NCBI RefSeq assembly: GCF_000243075.1 | Contig: NC_016745.1 | Coordinates: 2,807,001-2,871,000 of the forward strand | Direction of reading: 5' to 3' | From: Oceanimonas sp. GK1 | GTDB taxonomy: Bacteria; Pseudomonadota; Gammaproteobacteria; Enterobacterales; Aeromonadaceae | Length of the DNA: 64,000 nucleotides | Shown here: positions 34 to 57,358 of the stretch, piece by piece | Position numbering within the stretch: the stretch's first letter is position 1 | Layout: each line of letters opens with the position of its first letter | The notes under the pieces: generated by a model | The model's database searches: none | The model's input: only the letters and a program-made list of their open reading frames with translations | What the model was told of the DNA's origin: nothing | Translations under genes and position numbers: made by a program

Positions 34-36
34 TTG

Positions 37-79
37 TTGCCGCTTCGCGCCAAATTGCAGGCTAGCAGCCTGCGCTCCA
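37..79 (+). repeat. Partial copy of the modular hairpin repeat
   Basis: This is a two-module copy of the family that forms the tandem array at 3548-4395. It has a degraded c-type hairpin (TTGCCGC-TTC-GCGCCAA, one C-C mismatch) followed by the invariant e hairpin (GCAGGCTAGCAGCCTGC) and the closing GCTCCA. It ends 22 bases before the trmO start codon. It is the only copy in the window lying at the 5' side of a gene. Confidence 0.75.
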
Positions 80-3518: not shown

Positions 3519-3548
3519 TTAAAGCGCCCGCAAGGGCGCTTTTGCTTT
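3519..3548 (+). terminator. Rho-independent terminator of proS
   Basis: A perfect 9-bp stem AAAGCGCCC/GGGCGCTTT with a GCAA tetraloop and following T-rich tract lies just after the proS stop codon. Confidence 0.85.
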
Positions 3549-4395
3549 GGAGCGCGGGCCTTGTCCCCGAATGGGGGCAGCTTGCCCGCATTTTGGCGCA
3601 AAGCGCCAACTCCTTTGAGCGCCCATCGGGCGCTATTGCAGGCTGGCAGCCTGCGCTCCACTTAAATCGCGCACTCCCTGGAGCGCGGGCTTTGTCCCCG
3701 AATGGGGGCAGCTTGCCCGCATTTTGGCGCAAAGCGCCAACATTCTTGAGCACCCTACCGGGCGCTATTGCAGGCTGGCAGCCTGCGCTCCACTTAAATC
3801 GTGCATTCCCTGGAGCGCGGGCTTTGTCCCCGAATGGGGGCAGCTTGCCCGCATTTTGGCGCAAAGCGCCAACATTCTTGAGCACCCTGCCGGGCGCTAT
3901 TGCAGGATGGCAGCCTGCGCTCCACTTAAATCGTGCATTCCCTGGAGCGCGGGCAGCTTGCCCGCATTTTGGCGCAAAGCGCCAACATTCTTGAGCACCC
4001 TACCGGGCGCTATTGCAGGCTGGCAGCCTGCGCTCCACTTAAATCGCGCATGCTTTGGAGCGCGGGCAGCTTGCCCGCATTTTGGTGCAAAGCGCCAACA
4101 TTCTTGAGCACCCTACCGGGTGCTAATGCAGGCTGGCAGCCTGCGCTCCACTTAAATCGAGCATTCCCTGGAGCGCGGGCAGCTTGCCCGCATTTTGGCG
4201 CAAAGCGCCAACATTCTTGAGCACCCTACCGGGCGCTATTGCAGGCTGGCAGCCTGCGCTCCACTTAAATCGTGCATTCCCTGGAGCGCGGGCTTTGTCC
4301 CCGAATGGGGGCAGCTTGCCCGCAAATTGGCGCAAAGCGCAAACATTCTTGAGCATCCTACCGGGCGCTATTGCAGGCTGGCAGCCTGCGCTCCA
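3548..4395 (+). repeat. Tandem array of seven modular multi-hairpin repeat units
   Basis: Seven units begin with TGGAGCGCGGG at 3548, 3679, 3811, 3943, 4056, 4169 and 4282, giving periods of 131, 132, 132, 113, 113 and 113 bp; each ends in GCGCTCCA plus an ~18-bp linker (CTTAAATCG type). A full unit reads: outer arm GGAGC; hairpin b GCGGGC...GCCCGC, in long units enclosing a nested CCCC-GAAT-GGGG hairpin; hairpin c TTGGCGC-AAA-GCGCCAA; hairpin d AGCGCCC/GGGCGCT; hairpin e GCAGGCT-GGC-AGCCTGC; outer arm GCTCC. Units 4-6 lack exactly 19 bp, the nested hairpin, between two GGGC repeats. Unit 7 has a broken c stem. Open frames across the array are by-products of GC richness and are not called as genes. 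No other feature is seen between proS and the lipase gene. Confidence 0.95.
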
Positions 4396-5628: not shown

Positions 5629-5928
5629 TGGAGCACGGGTCTTGTCTCCGGATGGCATGAAGCGGCTACGTCCTTTGAGCGCCCTCACGGGCGCTATTGC
5701 AGGCTGGCAGCCTGCGCTCCAACACCATGGTAGCGGCTACGTCCTTTGAGCGCCCTCACGGGCGCTATTGCAGGCTGGCAGCCTGTGCTCCAACACCATG
5801 GTAGCGGCACGTCCTTGAGCGCCCGCCGGGCGCTATTGCAGGCTGGCAGCCTGTGCTCCAACACCATGGTAGCGGCACGTCCTTGAGCGCCCGCCGGGCG
5901 CTATTGCAGGCTGCCAGCCTGCGCTCCA
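5629..5928 (+). repeat. Second tandem array of the modular hairpin repeat (short form)
   Basis: A degenerate head (GGAGCACGGGTCTTGTCTCC, related to the outer arm and hairpin b) is followed by four tandem copies of a 68-71-bp unit, starting with AGCGGC at 5661, 5732, 5803 and 5871. Each carries hairpin d (AGCGCCC...GGGCGCT), hairpin e (GCAGGCTGGCAGCCTGC or a near variant) and GCTCCAACACCATGGT. The d loops differ between copies (TCAC versus GCC) while the stems are kept. The right end of the array encodes the C-terminus of TilS on the other strand. Confidence 0.93.
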
Positions 5929-7232
5929 ACAGGCTCCCATTCCAGCTGCCAGCCGGGCTGGCCGGGGGCGGCGGCGTAGTCGGCGCAGACAAACACCCCC
6001 ACGGCGGCAACCAGCCGGTCATCTTGCATCAGTAGGGGAATGCGCGGGCGTTGCCAGGGGGACACACCGTATTCCTGCCAGAGTTTCTTCAGCGGCCGGG
6101 ATCCACTGCGGCCAAGCGGGCGTGCCCGCAGGCCCGAAATCCCAAAGGCGATATGCAGCTCGTTTGGTAACACACCGTCATGAATGGCCGCGCCGCTTGC
6201 CACCTGCTTTATGCGCAAACGGCCCACCCCCAGATCGTGCCATTGCTCGGGCTCAAGCACGGAGAGCGCCACCGTCTCCCCTGGTAGCGCCGGCACATAC
6301 AAATGTCCCTGATAACGGCGCAACCCCTTGCCGCCCAGGCGAAATACCGGCTCCGCATCTTCCCGGGCCAGGGCCAGCTCGCTCCAGGCCACCTCCAGCT
6401 GGCTGCGGCTCAACGACAGCCCCTGTTCACCCAGCCAGTGGCGCAGGGCGTTGTGGCGCCGGGCCGGGCTCAGTTGCTCCAGGCCGGCAATGCTCAGCCC
6501 GCCGGCGGCGTTTTGCAACGACGGCAGATCCTGTGCGGCCAGCTCTCGCGCCAGCGCCAGCTGCTCGGCACACAGCTCGGCGCTGCGGCTGGCGGTGCGG
6601 GCAAAGGCCGGCCACTGGGCCAGCAGCCGGGGCAAAATATCGTTGCGCAGAAAGTTGCGGTCAAAGCGATTGTCGGTATTGGACGGGTCTTCCACCCAGC
6701 TCAAGCCCTGAACAATCGCAAAACTTTCAAGCTCGCTGCGGGCACAATCCAGCAGCGGCCGAAGCTGCACCCCCTGCCCCAGCGGCTTGCACGCCGGCAT
6801 GGCGGCAAGCCCGGCCAGGCCGGCACCGCGCTTGAGCGCCAGCAGCAGGGTTTCGGCCTGATCGTCCAGGTGGTGGCCGGTGAGCAGGGCCGCCCCTGGT
6901 GGCAGCTCGGCGGCCAGTGCTCCGTAACGGGCGTTGCGGGCGGCAGCCTCCACACTCACCCGCGGGCCGGTGTCCACCTTGACCTTTAAGATGCGACAGG
7001 GCACGTCCAGCGTCTTCGCGACCTGTGCACAATGCACCGGCCAGGCATCGGCCGCCGGCTGCAGGCCGTGGTGCACGTGTAGGGCCACCAGCTCACGCTG
7101 CTGTTCGGCGGCCAGACGGGCCGCCAGCGCCAGCAATACCGTGGAGTCGAGCCCGCCACTGAAGGCGATATAGATAGGGCCTTGAGGGTAAAGCTCGTGC
7201 AGGCACCGGCAAAAACGCGCGTACAAGGTCAT
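5901..7232 (-). CDS. tilS: tRNA(Ile)-lysidine synthetase TilS
   Basis: Attaches lysine to C34 of tRNA-Ile(CAU), an essential modification that converts a Met-type anticodon to an Ile-type one. The product has 443 residues. The N-terminal PP-loop ATPase has SGGLDS at 25-30 and the GHHLDDQAETLLL segment; the C-terminal half matches the TilS substrate-binding domains. The ATG at 7232 overlaps the TGA of the upstream sensor gene (ATGA), so it is chosen over the GTG two codons earlier. The last residues (about GAQAGSLQ) and the stop codon lie inside the hairpin repeat array, so the array has replaced or extended the native C-terminus. Confidence 0.93.
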   Translation of the reverse strand: MTLYARFCRCLHELYPQGPIYIAFSGGLDSTVLLALAARLAAEQQRELVALHVHHGLQPAADAWPVHCAQVAKTLDVPCRILKVKVDTGPRVSVEAAARNARYGALAAELPPGAALLTGHHLDDQAETLLLALKRGAGLAGLAAMPACKPLGQGVQLRPLLDCARSELESFAIVQGLSWVEDPSNTDNRFDRNFLRNDILPRLLAQWPAFARTASRSAELCAEQLALARELAAQDLPSLQNAAGGLSIAGLEQLSPARRHNALRHWLGEQGLSLSRSQLEVAWSELALAREDAEPVFRLGGKGLRRYQGHLYVPALPGETVALSVLEPEQWHDLGVGRLRIKQVASGAAIHDGVLPNELHIAFGISGLRARPLGRSGSRPLKKLWQEYGVSPWQRPRIPLLMQDDRLVAAVGVFVCADYAAAPGQPGWQLEWEPVGAQAGSLQ

Positions 7233-10108
7233 GACCACAACTCCACCCGGTTTCGTCCGTTGTTTTTGGCGCGGTAAAGCGCCTGATCGGCATGGGCCAG
7301 TAGCCGGTCTTCACTGCCGGCGCCGGCCGCCTCGGCCAGCCCCAGCGACACGGTCAGGCTCAGCCCCGCGGCAATGGAGCTGCAATCCAGGCCGGCCACG
7401 GCCTCGCGAATGCGTTCACAAATGCGGGTGGCGTCCTGCAGGCTGGTATCGGGAAACAGCAGGGTAAACTCCTCGCCCCCCCAGCGGGCCACGCTGTCCT
7501 GGCTGCGGATCTGCGCACGCAGTACCCCGGCCACCGCCTTGATGGCCTCGTCTCCCACGCCGTGAGACCACTGATCATTCACCCGCTTGAAGTGATCAAT
7601 GTCCACCACCGCCAGGCAAAGGCCGTGCCCACCCTGTTCGAAACGGCCATAGGCGTCTGCCAGCCAGTCGTCAAAGGCCCGCCGGTTGGCCAGGCCGGTG
7701 AGCTGATCTTCACGCGCCTGGCGTTCAAAGGCCTGGGTCTGTTGTTGCAGGGCCTGGGTTTTCTCCTCCACCAGTCGCCTGAGGGTGCTGGCATTGCGTT
7801 TGAGCATGCGCAGGCGCAGCTGAAACAGCCCCCACAGCAGCAGCAAGCCGGCGCCGCCGGCCACTCCCCAGAATGCGGGCCGCTGCCAGAAAAAGGGCGC
7901 AATGCTGAAGCTCAACCCGGCTTCCCGGTTGCTCCAGGGACTGTAGGGGTAAGACGCCGCCACCTGCAGCCGGTAATTGCCCGGGGCCAGGTTGGTGTAT
8001 TCCGCCAGGTTCTGCCCGCCGCGCTCGACCCATTGCTTGTCAAACCCCTCCAGCCGAGTGCGGTAACGAATGCGCTCGGGCATCACATAGCCCAGGCCGG
8101 CAAACTCGATTTGAATACGGTCACTGCCAGCGGGCAGGGCCAGAGGCCGGCCCGGCAATACCGGCATGCCGTTGACCCTGATGTTTTCCAGCACCACCGG
8201 CAGATTGTTGTGCACCAAGCTGGCCAGCCGCTTTGGCTGCACCCGCGCCACGCCCACGGCCGTGGCAATCCAGAGGCTGCCGTCGGGTGCCAGGGTGGCC
8301 GCCGGCCCCGAGCCGCCATTGGCCTGGCTGCTGGCCATGCCATCCCCTTCTCCGAACACGTCAAAGGGAATCGTGTCCTGCTCGCCATCCGCCACCCGGT
8401 GCGCCTCGGCCAGATCCAGCCGCAGTATGCCCCGGTTGGTGGTCAGCCAGATGCCGCCTTGCTCGTCGGCCACCGGCTGAAACATTTTTTCGATGGGCAG
8501 GCCATGAGGCCGTCCCACCATGGACAGACTGTCATCCCGGTAACGGTAACGCAGCAGGCCGCGGTCGGTGGCAATCCAGACCGCGTCAGTGCCCCGCTGC
8601 TGATAAAACCCAAAGGCATACTCGGCATTTTCCTGACGGTGCAGATCAAGCGCCCGAATGTGCGCCGGATCCCCGCCGCCCATGATGGCCGCGCCCACGC
8701 CGGTACCCACCCAGATATCGCCGTTTTCCGCCTGATGCAGGGCCATCACAAACTCGCCGGGCAAACCGTCCCGCTTGCCGTAGGTAAATACCCTGCCCTG
8801 CTGCAGCCGGCTCAGCCCCTCGGCGGTGCCCACCCACAGGCTGCCATCCCGGGCCGGCAGTATGGCGCGCACTTCATCGGCACTGAGGCCCTGCCGGCGG
8901 TCGATGATCCGTGGCTCACGGCCCGGTTCAAGGGCAATGAGGCCGTGGGTATAGGTGCCCAGCCACAGGATGTTGCCCTGTCGGGCCAGACTCAGAATGG
9001 AAGGGGTCTTGCCGTCCGGCAGGCGCACCGGCACCGGCCGGGCTCCGTCGGCATCGATAACGCTGAGGCCGTTACTCGAGCCCACCCAGATGCGCCCGGC
9101 CTCGTCGGCCAGCACGCTACGCACATAGTTGCCCGACAGCCCCTGCTCCTGGGTGAAGCTGGTAAAGGGGGCATCGCGCAGGCGCAGCAGGCCCCCGTTG
9201 GTCCCCACCCAGAGGTTGCCTTCGGTGTCCTGCAGCAGCGACAACACCCGGTTGTCGGGCAGGCCCTGGGCCATGCCCATGCGCTCCAGCCCGAGCTCAC
9301 TCAGCCGTGCCAGCCCCCGGTCCGTGGTGCCAACCCAGAGATCCCCCCTGTTGTCTTCCAGCAGGCTGCTGATGGCTTCATCGGCCAGCTGCGGATGAAG
9401 AGGGGCAAAGCCGCCGTTGCCATCACTGCCGTACAGCCCCTGCCCCGAGCCCACCAGCAACTGCCCCTGCTGGGTTTGCAACAGCGCCAGCACGGGGACA
9501 GCGGGAATATGCTCGTTCACGGTGATCCCATTGTCAGCGCTGATCACCGCCAGGCCCTGAGAAGTTCCCGCCCAGACTTGCCCGTCGGCCGTTTGCAGCA
9601 GGCGGTAAACCGCCAGTCCCGGCAGGCCCTGGGCCGAGGAAAAATGGTGCTGGGTGCCCTGCGGGTCACGCATATAAAGGCCGTCGCCTTCGGTGGCGAA
9701 CCATAACCGGCCCTGCCGGTCGCGCAACACATGATTCACCATGGCGGGCAGGCTGGACTGAGGCTGCCACTGGGGATATTGATAGCGGCTGAACCCGCCC
9801 CGGGCCCCCACCACCAGCAGACCGTCCCCGTCCGGGGTCAGGCCACGAATGCCGGAGTCGGGCAGGCCGGTTTGCTTGCCGCGCACAAAGGTATGAAATC
9901 CGCGCCCGTTGTAGCGGGACACCCCTTCCCAGGTGGCGAACCAGAGGTAACCTTCGGGGGTTTGCGCCATGCTGTTGATGCTGTTGTGAGGCAGGCCGTT
10001 GCGGGTGTTCCAGCTGTCCTGGTAGTAATCCCGCAATGGCGAGTCGGCGGCCGCCAGCGGCCAGGCCAGCAGCAGACAAACGAGCAACAGCAAACGGCAA
10101 AGGTTCAT
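7229..10108 (-). CDS. Membrane sensor diguanylate cyclase with periplasmic two-component-type propeller
   Basis: Large 959-residue sensor. In order it has: a signal peptide (about residues 1-22); many Reg_prop-type propeller repeats (recurring LWVGT and IWVGT blades, about 30-690) like those of hybrid two-component sensors; a Y_Y_Y domain (about 690-765); one transmembrane helix (about 770-790); a short coiled coil rich in Q; and a GGDEF domain. The active site is GGEEF (near residue 877) with an RSQD inhibitory I-site five residues before it, so it should make c-di-GMP with product feedback. The ATG at 10108 follows AGGGA. Transcription continues into tilS through a 4-base ATGA overlap. The signal it senses is unknown. 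Confidence 0.9.
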   Translation of the reverse strand: MNLCRLLLLVCLLLAWPLAAADSPLRDYYQDSWNTRNGLPHNSINSMAQTPEGYLWFATWEGVSRYNGRGFHTFVRGKQTGLPDSGIRGLTPDGDGLLVVGARGGFSRYQYPQWQPQSSLPAMVNHVLRDRQGRLWFATEGDGLYMRDPQGTQHHFSSAQGLPGLAVYRLLQTADGQVWAGTSQGLAVISADNGITVNEHIPAVPVLALLQTQQGQLLVGSGQGLYGSDGNGGFAPLHPQLADEAISSLLEDNRGDLWVGTTDRGLARLSELGLERMGMAQGLPDNRVLSLLQDTEGNLWVGTNGGLLRLRDAPFTSFTQEQGLSGNYVRSVLADEAGRIWVGSSNGLSVIDADGARPVPVRLPDGKTPSILSLARQGNILWLGTYTHGLIALEPGREPRIIDRRQGLSADEVRAILPARDGSLWVGTAEGLSRLQQGRVFTYGKRDGLPGEFVMALHQAENGDIWVGTGVGAAIMGGGDPAHIRALDLHRQENAEYAFGFYQQRGTDAVWIATDRGLLRYRYRDDSLSMVGRPHGLPIEKMFQPVADEQGGIWLTTNRGILRLDLAEAHRVADGEQDTIPFDVFGEGDGMASSQANGGSGPAATLAPDGSLWIATAVGVARVQPKRLASLVHNNLPVVLENIRVNGMPVLPGRPLALPAGSDRIQIEFAGLGYVMPERIRYRTRLEGFDKQWVERGGQNLAEYTNLAPGNYRLQVAASYPYSPWSNREAGLSFSIAPFFWQRPAFWGVAGGAGLLLLWGLFQLRLRMLKRNASTLRRLVEEKTQALQQQTQAFERQAREDQLTGLANRRAFDDWLADAYGRFEQGGHGLCLAVVDIDHFKRVNDQWSHGVGDEAIKAVAGVLRAQIRSQDSVARWGGEEFTLLFPDTSLQDATRICERIREAVAGLDCSSIAAGLSLTVSLGLAEAAGAGSEDRLLAHADQALYRAKNNGRNRVELWS

Positions 10109-10239: not shown

Positions 10240-10260
10240 GGTGGGGCGCAGGTAGCTGCC

Positions 10261-10349
10261 GCGGACAGCCTGTTCGCATTTTGGTGCAAAGCGCCAACTC
10301 CTTTAAGCGCCCTTACGGGCGCTAATGCAGGCTAGCAGCCTGCGCTCCA
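10261..10349 (+). repeat. Single copy of the modular hairpin repeat
   Basis: Modules b (GCGGAC-AGCCT-GTTCGC, one G-T pair), c (TTGGTGC-AAA-GCGCCAA, one G-T pair), d (AGCGCCC-TTAC-GGGCGCT) and e (GCAGGCTAGCAGCCTGC), then GCTCCA. The left outer arm is missing. It lies 8 bases beyond the accA stop codon, so it is transcribed as the accA 3' UTR in antisense orientation. The remaining 10112-10260 holds the accA terminator and the presumed promoter of the cyclase gene. Confidence 0.88.
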
Positions 10350-10357
10350 ATTACGGC

Positions 10358-11314
10358 TCAGCAGTAGCCGTATTTCATCAGGCGCTGGTAGCGCTGTTCA
10401 AGCAGGGTGTCGGTGTCGAGCTGGTCGAGGTCGGCCAGATCGGTGAGCAGGCGCTGTTTCAGGCGCTCCGCGATAAGCAGAGGGTTGCTGTGGGCGCCGC
10501 CCATGGGCTCTTCCACCACGTTGTCGATAAGCCCCAGCTCGTGAATGCGGCCGGCGGTAATGCCCATGGCTTCGGCGGCGACCGACGCCTTGTCGGCACT
10601 CTTCCACAAAATGGAGGCACAGCCTTCCGGGGAGATCACCGAGTAGGTGGAATACTGCAGCATGTTGACCCGGTCGCCCACGCCAATGGCCAGGGCGCCG
10701 CCGGAGCCGCCCTCACCCACCACGGTGCAGATGATGGGGGTCTTGAGGCCGGACATCACCTTGAGGTTGCGGGCAATGGCTTCACTCTGGCCACGCTCTT
10801 CCGCCCCCACGCCCGGGTAGGCGCCGGGGGTGTCGATAAAGGTGAGGATCGGCATTTTGAAGCGTTCGGCCATTTCCATCAGCCGCAGGGCCTTGCGATA
10901 GCCTTCGGGGCGGGGCATGCCGAAGTTGCGCTTGATCTTTTCCTTGGTCTCGCGTCCCTTCTGGTGGCCGATCACCATGACCGGGCGACCTTCAAAGCGG
11001 GCCACGCCCCCGACAATGGCCTTGTCGTCGGCGTAGGCGCGGTCACCGGCCAGCTCGTCGAACTCGCCAAACATCAGCTCCAGGTAGTCCTGAGTGTAGG
11101 GGCGGCGCGGGTGGCGGGCCAGCTGGGAAATCTGCCAGGGGCCCAGGTTGCTGAAGACCTTTCTGGTCAGCTCGTCGCGTTTGGCTTCCAGCCGGCTGAT
11201 TTCTTCATCCAGGTCGATGTCGAGGCCGTCGCCCTCGCCCACGTGACGAAGCTCTTCAATCTGGGCCTGAAGCTCGGCGATGGGTTGTTCAAAATCCAGA
11301 AAATGGTGGCTCAT
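10358..11314 (-). CDS. accA: Acetyl-CoA carboxylase carboxyltransferase subunit alpha
   Basis: Alpha subunit of the carboxyltransferase that, with AccD and biotinyl-AccB, makes malonyl-CoA for fatty-acid synthesis. The 318-residue length matches E. coli (319). The crotonase-like core shows the conserved [18 protein letters not shown] block and a glycine-rich [13 protein letters not shown] segment that forms the oxyanion and CoA region. It is the last gene of the rpsB-accA superoperon, 9 bases after dnaE, the same neighbour as in E. coli. Confidence 0.97.
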
Positions 11315-25248: not shown

Positions 25249-25327
25249 GAAATGTCCTCTTTCTCGGGGTGAGGGCCGCAGGCCGGGTGCTCACCCTGGT
25301 CGTTTTTATTTGTTATCGCTGCACCGA

Positions 25328-25422
25328 TGGATTCCCGCCTGCGCGGGAATGACACCCCAACCCCCGTCACCCCTGCGGAATGACTCCTTAATGTTCGTCA
25401 CGCCTGCGCGAATGACAAAACA
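25328..25422. repeat. GTCATTCCCG-type repeat cluster in the uppS-cdsA gap
   Basis: One good copy (ATTCCCG...CGGGAAT around CCTGCG, 25328-25353), followed by two decayed copies recognisable on the minus strand as GTCATTC...GCAGG. Together they lengthen the uppS-cdsA gap to about 180 bases in an otherwise tight operon. A hairpin GGGTGA...TCACCC (about 25269-25298) lies beside it. Confidence 0.6.
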
Positions 25423-29460: not shown

Positions 29461-29604
29461 GATTTCCTCAAATATGTAGTGGGTTAGGCCTCCACACATC
29501 CCATGACTCCGACCCGCAGGCACCCTGGAGCATGTGCCGATGTGTGTGTGTGTTAAATAAAGTGAATGTTGGTGCAATGCCGAATGTTTGAAACCCGCCA
29601 TCAC

Positions 29605-35225: not shown

Positions 35226-35353
35226 TGCTTCACACATTTCCCGCCTGAACAGACCGCAGCTTGCGGCAGCCCACAAAACCGGCATTTTCCCTTCGCTTTT
35301 TTTCTTTTTGTTTCATTAACATGCTTCCAGTCATCCACGGGAGCCCGCTTGTC

Positions 35354-37099
35354 ATGAATAGCCGCACACGGGAAATGGCGCACATTGTCATGCGCGGTTT
35401 CGACGCCTTTCATCGCTATTTTCTGGTGATTACGCAAGGGGCCAAGGCCCGCTTTGAAGCCCAGGACTGGAGCGGGGTGCAACTGGCCTCGCGCCGGCGC
35501 ATCTGGCTTTACGACGAGCACGTCAACAATACGGTGCGTGCCGTGCTCGACTATAACCGGGGGCCGCTGCGCCACCAGGAGCTGAAGGCGCTCAAGCAGG
35601 CCTTTAACGATCTGCTGCTCACCCATCCCAATGCGGACATGGCCGAGTCCTTCTACAACTCGGTATATCGCCGCTCCACCCGCCATCGCAGCATTCGCGC
35701 CGAAAACCTGTATGTGCACCCCTTTGTTCCCCAGCCCGGCGAGCAGGATCTCGGCCCCGTTAGCTGGCACTACCACCTTGCTCCCGATGAGCTGGGCACC
35801 ATACTGCCAGGCCTGCTGGCGCGCCTGGGGCTGGAGCTGCCCTTTCTGCGGCTGGAGCGGGATTTAAATCATGTGCAGCGCACCCTGGCCGAGCAGGGAC
35901 TGGCCGGAGAGCCCCTGCAACTGACCGTGATCAACACCCTGTTCTACCGCAACAAGGGCGCTTATCTCATTGGCCGGCTGGAGCGCCCGGAAGGCCCCCT
36001 GCCCTTTATTTTGCCCATACTGCACGAGAACGGTGGCCTGATCATCGACACCCTGCTGCTCAGCCGGGACGACGCCTCCATTCTGTTCGGCTTTGCCCGG
36101 GCCTACTTTATGGTGTGGTGCCCGCGGCCCTCGCTGCTGGTGCAGTTTCTGCGGCCGCTGCTGCCCAACAAGTCGGACTATGAAATCTACAACGCCATTG
36201 GCTGGCAAAAGCACGGCAAGACCATCTTTTATCGGGACTTTCTGCAGCATTTGCAGCAGTCACGGGATCAGTTCGTGCCCGCCGCCGGCATCAAGGGCAT
36301 GGTGATGTGCGTGTTTACCCTGCCTTCACTTGACGTGGTGTTCAAGGTGATCAAGGACCGCTTTACTCCGCCCAAAACCGTGGACCGGGATACCGTCAAG
36401 GCCAAATATCGGCTGGTCAAGCAGCACGACCGGGTGGGCCGCATGGCCGACACCATGGAGTTCACCAACTTTGAACTGCCGCTTCACCGCATCAGCCCGG
36501 CCTTGCTGGAAGAGCTGCAACGGGAAGTGCCGTCCCTGCTCACCCAAAAGGACGATCGGTTGATTATTCATCATCTGTATACCGAGCGGCGCATGACGCC
36601 CCTGAATATGTATCTGGAGCAGGCCGACGACGAACAGCTCAGACATGCCCTGGATGAATACGCCAATGCCCTGAAACAGCTGGCCGCCGCCAATATTTTT
36701 CCCGGCGACATGCTGTTCAAAAACTTTGGCGTCACCCGCCACGGCCGGGTGATTTTCTACGACTACGACGAAATCGCCTACATGACCGAGTGCCACTTTC
36801 GCGATATTCCCAAAACCGACCACCTGCAGGATCAACTCAGCCCCGAGCCCTGGTACTCGGTGGGGCCGAACGATGTGTTTCCGCAAGAGTTCAAAACCTT
36901 TCTGCTGTACAAACCGCGCATTCGGGCCGCCTTTGACCCGCGGCACCTGGAGCTGTTTACCGCCGGTTACTGGCGACAACTGCAGCACAACATTGAGCAG
37001 GGCCGGGTGGAAGACATCTTCCCCTACCGCCGGCGGCAGCGGTTTAAATATAAGTACGGGGAGACGTTGGATGGGAAGACGGAAAGGGGTGAGAAGTGA
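35354..37099 (+). CDS. aceK: Isocitrate dehydrogenase kinase/phosphatase AceK
   Basis: Bifunctional enzyme that phosphorylates or dephosphorylates isocitrate dehydrogenase, diverting carbon to the glyoxylate shunt. 581 residues from ATG 35354 (E. coli 578); the open frame extends upstream without similarity. The ATP site includes AAGIKGMVMCVFTLPS and VFKVIKDRF, and the catalytic region GDMLFKNFGVTRHGRVIFYDYDE. Unlike E. coli it is not in an aceBAK operon but stands alone after purB. A modular hairpin repeat follows. Confidence 0.96.
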   Translation: MNSRTREMAHIVMRGFDAFHRYFLVITQGAKARFEAQDWSGVQLASRRRIWLYDEHVNNTVRAVLDYNRGPLRHQELKALKQAFNDLLLTHPNADMAESFYNSVYRRSTRHRSIRAENLYVHPFVPQPGEQDLGPVSWHYHLAPDELGTILPGLLARLGLELPFLRLERDLNHVQRTLAEQGLAGEPLQLTVINTLFYRNKGAYLIGRLERPEGPLPFILPILHENGGLIIDTLLLSRDDASILFGFARAYFMVWCPRPSLLVQFLRPLLPNKSDYEIYNAIGWQKHGKTIFYRDFLQHLQQSRDQFVPAAGIKGMVMCVFTLPSLDVVFKVIKDRFTPPKTVDRDTVKAKYRLVKQHDRVGRMADTMEFTNFELPLHRISPALLEELQREVPSLLTQKDDRLIIHHLYTERRMTPLNMYLEQADDEQLRHALDEYANALKQLAAANIFPGDMLFKNFGVTRHGRVIFYDYDEIAYMTECHFRDIPKTDHLQDQLSPEPWYSVGPNDVFPQEFKTFLLYKPRIRAAFDPRHLELFTAGYWRQLQHNIEQGRVEDIFPYRRRQRFKYKYGETLDGKTERGEK

Positions 37100-37118: not shown

Positions 37119-37209
37119 TGGAGCGCGGGCTGCCAGCCCGCAACTTGCCGCCGTGCGGCAACTTAAAAAGCACCTGCGGCGCTAATGCAGGCTGGCAGCC
37201 TGCGCTCCA
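37119..37209 (+). repeat. Four-hairpin copy of the modular repeat between aceK and rraA
   Basis: Complete 91-bp unit closed by GGAGC/GCTCC. Stems: b GCGGGCTGCCAGCCCGC, c TTGCCGC-CGT-GCGGCAA, d AGCACC-TGC-GGCGCT (A-C mismatch), e GCAGGCTGGCAGCCTGC. Compared with the 3.5-kb array, stem c differs at paired positions on both sides, preserving base-pairing. It ends 2 bases from the rraA stop codon, between convergent genes. Confidence 0.92.
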
Positions 37210-37211
37210 TG

Positions 37212-37703
37212 TTACAGCTGCGGGTGGCTCAGGGGCTCGCGGGACACCAGCACGCCGTTCAAGTCCGAGTAGATGTAGTCTCCCGGGTAAATGGTCACGC
37301 CGGCAAAGGTCACCGGTACGTCCACCACGCCTTCACCGCGTTTTTCCGAACGGATGGGGCAGGCCGCCAGGGCCTTGATGCCCAACGCCAGCTCACCCAG
37401 GGTGCCGGCATCGCGAACCGCACCGTGAATGACGATGCCTTCCCAGCCGTTTTCCAGCGCCTTTTCCGCCAGCATGTCGCCCATCAGGGCACAGCGCAGC
37501 AAGCCGCCGCCGTCCACCACCAGCACCTTGCCGGTGCCGGGCTCGGATACCAGCTCCCGTACCCGGGAGTTGTCTTCGTAACAGCGCACCGTTACCGCCT
37601 GGCCCCAGAACAGGGATTCCCCTCCAAAATCGCGAAATACCGGGTCCAGCATCCTGACCAGATCGGCATGTTCATCACACAAGTCCGGCAACAAATCGAG
37701 CAT
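37212..37703 (-). CDS. rraA: Ribonuclease E activity regulator RraA
   Basis: Binds RNase E and inhibits mRNA decay. 163 residues from ATG 37703 with GGAGG 5 bases upstream (E. coli 161). Conserved GKVLVVDGGGLLRCALMGDMLAE and GAVRDAGTLGELALGIKALA blocks. RraA-fold proteins also include HMG aldolases, but length and sequence favour RraA. Divergent from arcA. Confidence 0.92.
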   Translation of the reverse strand: MLDLLPDLCDEHADLVRMLDPVFRDFGGESLFWGQAVTVRCYEDNSRVRELVSEPGTGKVLVVDGGGLLRCALMGDMLAEKALENGWEGIVIHGAVRDAGTLGELALGIKALAACPIRSEKRGEGVVDVPVTFAGVTIYPGDYIYSDLNGVLVSREPLSHPQL

Positions 37704-37814
37704 CTTATCCTCCGTTTTCTGCACAGATTTTTCGGCCTTCGTCTTTGGCAAAGGTCCGGGTTTCCAACAACGACATCAGGGCTTGCACCGACGCCGATGT
37801 TGTTAAATTGGCAC

Positions 37815-38847: not shown

Positions 38848-38852
38848 ATCTT

Positions 38853-38896
38853 TGGAGCGCCTGCGGCGCTAATGCAGGCTGGCAGCCTGCGCTCCA
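38853..38896 (+). repeat. Minimal (44-bp) copy of the modular hairpin repeat
   Basis: TGGAGCGCC-TGC-GGCGCT, AAT, then GCAGGCTGGCAGCCTGC and GCTCCA. Only hairpins d and e remain, still enclosed by GGAGC/GCTCC. Stem d here is AGCGCC/GGCGCT, fully paired. It lies between convergent arcA and fbaA. Confidence 0.9.
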
Positions 38897-57281: not shown

Positions 57282-57358
57282 CGGCGTGTAGCGCAGCCTG
57301 GTAGCGCACTGTCATGGGGTGTCAGGGGTCGGAGGTTCAAATCCTCTCACGCCGACCA
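57282..57358 (+). tRNA. tRNA-Pro(GGG)
   Basis: 77-nt cloverleaf including encoded CCA. Anticodon loop ATGGGGT gives anticodon GGG. Acceptor CGGCGTG pairs with CACGCCG, and the T arm is GGAGG-TTCAAAT-CCTCT. The anticodon stem CTGTC/GTCAG contains a T-T mismatch at 30-40, also present in E. coli proL, from which it differs by a C28-G42 to T28-A42 swap. Reads CCC/CCU. A terminator follows 10 bases later. Confidence 0.97.

Follow-up and report, generated by a model that had tools for sequence, protein, structure and literature searches.

Inverted GGAG-tagged double-hairpin repeats in Oceanimonas sp. GK1 and a candidate RAYT transposase in sister species

The 91-bp element at positions 37119-37209 of the window, the 64,000-nucleotide stretch of the Oceanimonas sp. 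GK1 chromosome analysed here, is best explained (with a probability of about 0.85) as a non-autonomous GGAG-tagged REP doublet of the REPIN/BIME type, which was spread by a RAYT/TnpAREP transposase resembling subclass 2.6 and whose copies in this genome are orphaned. The genome carries about 60-70 half units of this repeat, which occur singly, doubled or arrayed and are nearly all intergenic. Two sister genomes, Zobellella denitrificans ZD1 (G042) and Oceanimonas marisflavi 102-Na3 (G047), encode a second kind of RAYT with inverted GGAG units on both sides; since this gene was found in these two species, but not in the window's genome, we regard the copies here as orphans. What is unusual about the element is its GGAG tag and the presence of two hairpins per tag. 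The repeat is real and structured and was probably once mobile, although its transposition is something we infer.

Anatomy and copies of the element

Inspection of the sequence shows the 91 bp to be an inverted pair of 45-nt half units. Each half starts with TGGAGC, followed by a 7-bp stem with a 3-nt loop, a linker of about 3 nt and then another stem, 6-7 bp long, whose loop has 3-4 nt; the GGAG tag ends one base 5' of the hairpin-1 stem. Half unit A (37119..37163, + strand) comprises a T, GGAG at 37120-37123, a C and then both hairpins, the first with arms at 37125-37131 and 37135-37141 (GCGGGC...GCCCGC) and the second, after the linker, with arms at 37145-37151 and 37155-37161 (TTGCCGC...GCGGCAA). 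Half unit B (37165..37209) is inverted and lies on the - strand, with its tag at 37205-37208, the arms of its first hairpin at 37197-37203 and 37187-37193 (GCAGGC...GCCTGC) and those of its second at 37178-37183 and 37169-37174 (AGCGCC with GGTGCT, also written GGCGCT). The element sits between two convergent frames, 35261-37099 (+) and 37212-37751 (-), which we take to be aceK and rraA from their sequence; the names arcA, fba, proS, accA, tilS and rssA-like, given to other genes, are presumed in the same way.

Both strands of the 91-mer fold far better than shuffles: as DNA, it reaches z-scores of -6.3 and -6.8, and as RNA -7.6 and -7.1, with 0 of 200 shuffles as good each time. Half A alone scores -2.7 as DNA (2/200 shuffles as good), half B only -1.2 and not clearly better than its shuffles (21/200), and a 44-bp copy of the element -1.8 and -1.9 (10/200 each). 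In the lowest-energy fold of the 91-mer the two halves pair with each other; an isolated half folds into two consecutive hairpins. An earlier note on this DNA had proposed that all copies share one architecture, in which a GGAGC/GCTCC stem closes a row of hairpins. The copies are found where the note placed them, but GGAGC/GCTCC is better read as a 5' tag on each half than as a closing stem. The two sequences are complementary because the halves are inverted, and single halves, pairs with their tags inside and pairs in the same direction also occur genome-wide.

Within the window, 19 half units retain at least 6 of the 7 hairpin-1 pairs. After proS, seven inverted doublets with a period of 132 or 113 form a BIME-like array (3548..4395), whose copies are near-identical to one another and in which the A halves of four doublets have an enlarged first hairpin. 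A cluster at 5629..5928, located between two convergent genes, combines a degenerate A-type tag at 5629 with four B half units (5677-5928, - strand), and a doublet at 10254..10349, downstream of frame 10358-11314 (-), consists of a degenerate A half and a B half (10305-10349, -). The 44-bp copy (38853-38896) belongs to a short derivative at 38852..38896 (-), in which the second hairpin of a B half abuts the opposite tag; an identical 44 bp is found at the corresponding place in O. marisflavi. Finally, a mixed half unit at 35..79 (-) joins a B-type first hairpin to an A-type second hairpin, suggesting module exchange, and modules have been exchanged both ways, i.e. A-type hairpin 1 with B-type hairpin 2 and the reverse.

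Some further observations concern the surroundings of these copies. Half unit 5884-5928 overlaps the 3' end of frame 5901-7238 (-), presumably tilS, and supplies its last codons; the RAYT frame of O. marisflavi also terminates within a unit. The window holds two CGTC-type REP-like copies at 8-43 and 25318-25353 (GTCATTCCCG...GCGGGAATCC), with the GTCATTCCCG-type repeats, separate from the GGAG units, at 8-32 and 25329-25353. GTCAT-type or related palindromes, read by eye, fill the arcA-fba gap in three relatives (G058, G055 and G051), where the window has a GGAG copy.

Placement in the genome and in relatives

The genome, 3.5 Mb in size, contains 63 exact copies of TGGAGCRCRGGC, compared to a single one of the reversed pattern. 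A covariance model of the half unit, as the earlier note had proposed to build, gives 71 matches in the genome and detects the repeat in 12 of the 23 genomes of the genus. The repeat pattern itself is present in 10 of 75 genomes of the family, all 10 of them among the 23 of the window's genus, with 0 matches to a reversed control in each. In the examined parts of the window's genome, we recognized 60 half units in 32 clusters, and neighbours less than 150 bp apart are arranged with tags outside (11), tags inside (7) or in the same direction (8).

These copies are unevenly distributed. A region of less than 5% of the chromosome (2.738-2.906 Mb), which contains proS, holds 35 of the 63 exact tags, 14 of which belong to the window's array. 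When tags no more than 400 bp apart are grouped by hand, 13 of 33 places fall in this region; the corresponding cluster count (14 of 32, p 7e-11) is a biased figure, because this region was taken whole and others only around matches.

Genes were called with a simple hexamer score, which gave a coding fraction of 0.83. Convergent gaps hold 16 of the 32 clusters, codirectional gaps 15 and divergent gaps none; the remaining cluster falls inside a called gene. Divergent gaps make up 12-15% of the gaps in these parts of the genome, and the chance that none of the 31 intergenic clusters falls there is about 0.007-0.02. This placement, together with the strong RNA folding of the 91-mer, speaks for an RNA role, in which the element would act from both sides as a 3'-end structure, terminating or protecting the transcripts of genes that are convergent or codirectional, and its covariation would be selected on the RNA. 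We nevertheless consider such a role an unlikely main explanation, since the place of the element is not conserved: in a comparison of 16 loci from 15 of 22 relatives, whose gaps have diverged, it is present in 0 of the 12 readable relatives at aceK-rraA and in 1 of the 6 at arcA-fba, namely O. marisflavi. Furthermore, the arcA-fba gap contains a separate hairpin followed by T's, and in two sister genomes a transposase gene has copies on both sides. A position downstream of genes is in any case described as the usual one for REPs (PMC3733652).

RAYT genes in the genus and beyond

The earlier note had suggested looking for a RAYT gene, and the genome of Oceanimonas sp. GK1 does contain one, its single Y1 transposase match (C1:2520082-2520411), in an open reading frame of 155 codons (L009:1426-1893, - strand); however, this gene is surrounded by GTAG repeats and is therefore not the obvious partner of the GGAG element. 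As the sole such match with an open frame, it might still mobilize the element in trans, but this appears improbable to us: beyond its GTAG surroundings, it and the RAYTs with flanking GGAG repeats belong to different clades, and two relatives (G052 and G059) have RAYTs of the same type yet no GGAG repeats. We note that it adjoins what we take to be a DUF924-like gene, and that in G060 and O. marisflavi the neighbour of such a gene is a RAYT-like gene that differs from this one and comes with GGGGTCGGAGTC repeats.

The two RAYTs of the sister genomes that are flanked by GGAG units (L097, 192 aa, and L098, 202 aa) are 67% identical. L098 scores 96.7 bits against NCBIfam REP_Tyr_transpos (cut-off 80) and 44.9 bits against Pfam Y1_Tnp (cut-off 23), and in a PDB search with an alignment of five RAYTs, the best solved structure is TnpAREP 4er8 (E 8.4e-12); these matches assign the gene to the REP transposases. 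Both proteins have the motifs NHVH and WQ, together with YIHQNP in L097 and YIHRNP in L098. In the window's genome, tblastn at E 0.01 with the GGAG-type RAYT matches only the GTAG one. Likewise, no close relative of this RAYT was found in the eight other repeat-bearing genomes: G055 and G058 gave no match at E 0.01, and the remaining six, the window's own included, gave only partial matches with 27-39% identity. A tblastn search for remnants, covering the examined parts of the genome and the G060 stretches described below, returned nothing beyond the GTAG RAYT and some matches that were short or very weak, mostly peptides encoded by repeats. Copy number does not simply follow the RAYT gene, as the gene occurs in just 2 of the 10 genomes that bear the repeat, and G060, which lacks it, shows 104 pattern matches.

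In O. marisflavi, the RAYT frame (L261:10275-10880) adjoins proS (aligned at L261:8197-10030), the gene beside the window's array, with GGAG units between the two. At the other end of proS, this species has one degenerate GGAG unit, which immediately follows a terminator-like hairpin; this is also where the array of the window is located. In addition, stretches of contig C17 of G060 with at least nine listed units align to 2.784-2.805 Mb of the window's genome. Given the location of the O. marisflavi gene by proS and the alignment of the G060 units to this neighbourhood, a GGAG-type RAYT gene may once have sat in the proS region of the window's genome. This location is not certain, because the Z. 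denitrificans gene lies elsewhere: it was not found beside proS, and its neighbourhood matches another of the examined parts of the window's genome, at a position of about 0.65 Mb.

A search of 394 drawn genomes of the order found only O. marisflavi. With a profile, three further RAYTs of this kind were detected among 369 genomes of the class, and a phylum search matched 8 of 398 genomes; they reach at least one further class. Read by eye, their flanks carry inverted hairpins with GGAG, GGAC, GGAA or GGGG heads. Among 385 genomes of the class of G915 we found five new loci, of which four were readable by script: three are GGAG and one is GGGG (L270), where a G run at the end of a contig inflates the count, and GTAG is absent from the eight commonest tags printed for each of the four. 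The fifth locus (L271) is GGGG by eye. The tag-hairpin-hairpin-tag layout recurs in L149 and L150 and, by eye, in L155-L159. Separately, one RAYT of this clade (L152, in G801) lies in frame inside an open stretch of more than 1,100 codons.

An unguided count of tags before perfect stems ranks GGAG first in the GG set (26) and GTAG first in a comparison set (29) that represents the window's genus alone and one RAYT type. The perfect-stem scan counted 12 of the 14 listed loci per set. GGA[ACG] appears in 9 of the 12 GG loci; L150 also has two GTGG hits, and L154, L155 and L156 show no tag of these kinds. The comparison set has GTAG in 4 of 12 loci, GGAA in 2 and GGAT in 1. In a tree of 30 RAYTs, with tag labels set by eye and GTAG rows all from the window's genus, 18 GG-tag and 11 GTAG rows lie on opposite sides of one branch with a support of 100/100. 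The clade of a RAYT matches its tag type, on labels that were partly assigned by eye.

Stem covariation, known repeats and origin

The earlier note had pointed to paired changes that keep the stems intact as a sign that the folded form is selected. In hairpin 1, paired changes do keep the fold, far beyond shuffled expectation. In all 60 sites of the genome, anchored on the tag and 5' arm only and so blind to pairing, pair 3 is A-T in 31, G-C in 25 and non-Watson-Crick in 4 (56/60 paired; shuffled mean 28.6), while pair 7 is TA in 30, AT in 15, GC in 7, CG in 2 and non-Watson-Crick in 6 (54/60 paired; shuffled mean 22.9). None of 10,000 shuffles, which ignore relatedness, reaches the value of either pair. 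A separate count with 100% pairing covers 28 well-formed sites out of 56 distinct own sites and is not independent evidence, because these were picked by hand.

In the second hairpin, stem c does read TTGCCGC/GCGGCAA here and TTGGCGC/GCGCCAA in the array, as had been noted, but its covariation is not clean, with a G-G mismatch at one pair in 3 of 21 own and 6 of 14 of the relatives' distinct sites. The two forms reported for stem d (AGCGCCC/GGGCGCT and AGCACCC/GGGTGCT) are correct; their intermediates are A-C on the + strand, as described, but read as G-T wobbles when the tag strand is considered. All pairs of stem d are Watson-Crick in 18 of 25 own and 14 of 17 of the relatives' distinct sites, in a best-of-registers reading that leans towards pairing. 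The wobble pairs favour the tag strand weakly and without significance, both in the distinct arm pairs of the second hairpin (12 G-T versus 4 A-C, p 0.077) and over all cells (21 versus 12, p 0.16), and we do not derive a strand polarity from them.

The near-identity of the array copies and shuffles that disregard relatedness would be compatible with stems paired through gene conversion and shared descent instead of selection on folding, but the occurrence of all four Watson-Crick types among the paired sites at pair 7 and the different yet palindromic stems beside same-clade RAYTs elsewhere make this highly implausible. Compensatory changes have already been described in REP and REPIN hairpins (PMC3116915; PMC2817692), so the covariation supports membership in the REP elements and not a new principle.

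Regarding this membership, the earlier note saw only a loose resemblance to REP/BIME elements, a judgement that is too cautious in view of the tag and palindrome, the inverted doublets, the arrays, the intergenic placement and the flanked RAYT in two sister genomes. The broad features of REP, REPIN and BIME elements are all found here: a 5' tetranucleotide at the foot of a GC-rich palindrome, many copies, an extragenic position (31 of 32 clusters) and inverted doublets or arrays. A cognate RAYT flanked by inverted copies is present in the two sister genomes and was not found in the window's own. The note knew no named element with this design; at the element, no Rfam family attains its gathering score, and the weak matches lie far below. 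The window's Rfam matches are a t44 RNA (29483-29568) and a tRNA (57282-57355), neither at the element, and we reject a named Rfam family.

REPINs, or REP doublets, as described in PMC3116915, resemble the element in being inverted REP pairs with a spacer that are extragenic, occur as singles and in tandem clusters, show compensatory hairpin changes and are linked to specific RAYTs; they differ in their GT[AG]G tag, whereas here we find GGAG, two hairpins per half and no RAYT detected in the same genome. The GTAG and CGTC superfamilies, in the account of PMC3733652, share tags on the outside (HH dimers), heterodimers with different stems and some stem-loop spacers. The GGAG head of the element is neither the GT[AG]G of canonical GTAG REPs nor the CGTC of CGTC REPs, and the main text of PMC3733652 does not contain the string GGAG. 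TIRYTs, in the same account, likewise have RAYT-like genes flanked by non-GTAG inverted repeats, but these carry a GGGGWSAS motif, whereas the repeat here is a double hairpin, and GGGG[AT][CG]A[CG] does not fit the element's GGAGCGCG. A further similar system is TnpAREP subclass 2.6 as PMC6006769 presents it, with 'atypical secondary structures' and repeats that lack GT[AG]G, flank the gene and recur elsewhere in the genome. The GGAG-type RAYTs resemble it in their NHVH, WQ and YIH[QR]NP motifs, although the YIHRNP of L098 departs from the motif criterion (NH[LIV]H, WQ, YIH[QN]NP); the subclass differs in being described as mostly from Bacteroidetes, and its repeats were compared by description only. 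A literature search combining RAYT or REP terms with GGAG gave no paper with both RAYT and GGAG among the matches listed, which include some typing papers with GGAG and a REP phrase but no RAYT.

If the element is a GGAG REP doublet spread by a RAYT, it would consist of two inverted GGAG-tagged double-hairpin REP units, and the spreader would be a REP-associated HUH tyrosine transposase (RAYT/TnpAREP) of a subclass-2.6-like clade. The enzyme would recognize the folded tag strand as single-stranded DNA, with GGAG presumably acting as guide, and TnpAREP biochemistry (PMC8266576) suggests that it would also cleave and move the element. The four bases preceding a REP hairpin are considered to function like the guide sequence at IS200/IS605 ends; the three pairs of enzyme and repeat that were assayed in that work are GTAG systems (PMC8266576). 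Arrays may still grow and shrink through ordinary tandem duplication. The gene was probably lost from the genome of Oceanimonas sp. GK1 rather than never present, and some copies may later have come into use as 3'-end RNA structures.

More generally, we lean slightly towards a third class of REP tags besides GTAG and CGTC, the GG tags (GGAG, GGAC, GGAA, GGGG). Such REPs would often place two hairpins between their inverted tags and would depend on a single RAYT clade that branches away from the GTAG RAYTs, tag and transposase having changed together. If true, nature would here provide a code by which HUH REP transposases recognize their guides, and the clade with its GGAN and GGGG tags would offer natural variants for tests of tag-enzyme coevolution. 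For Oceanimonas sp. GK1, it would mean that the repeats survive as orphans, and that their highest density still points to the neighbourhood in which a sister species has retained the enzyme. The case suggests that a REP population may outlive its enzyme within one genus, in a way that can be traced in already sequenced genomes.
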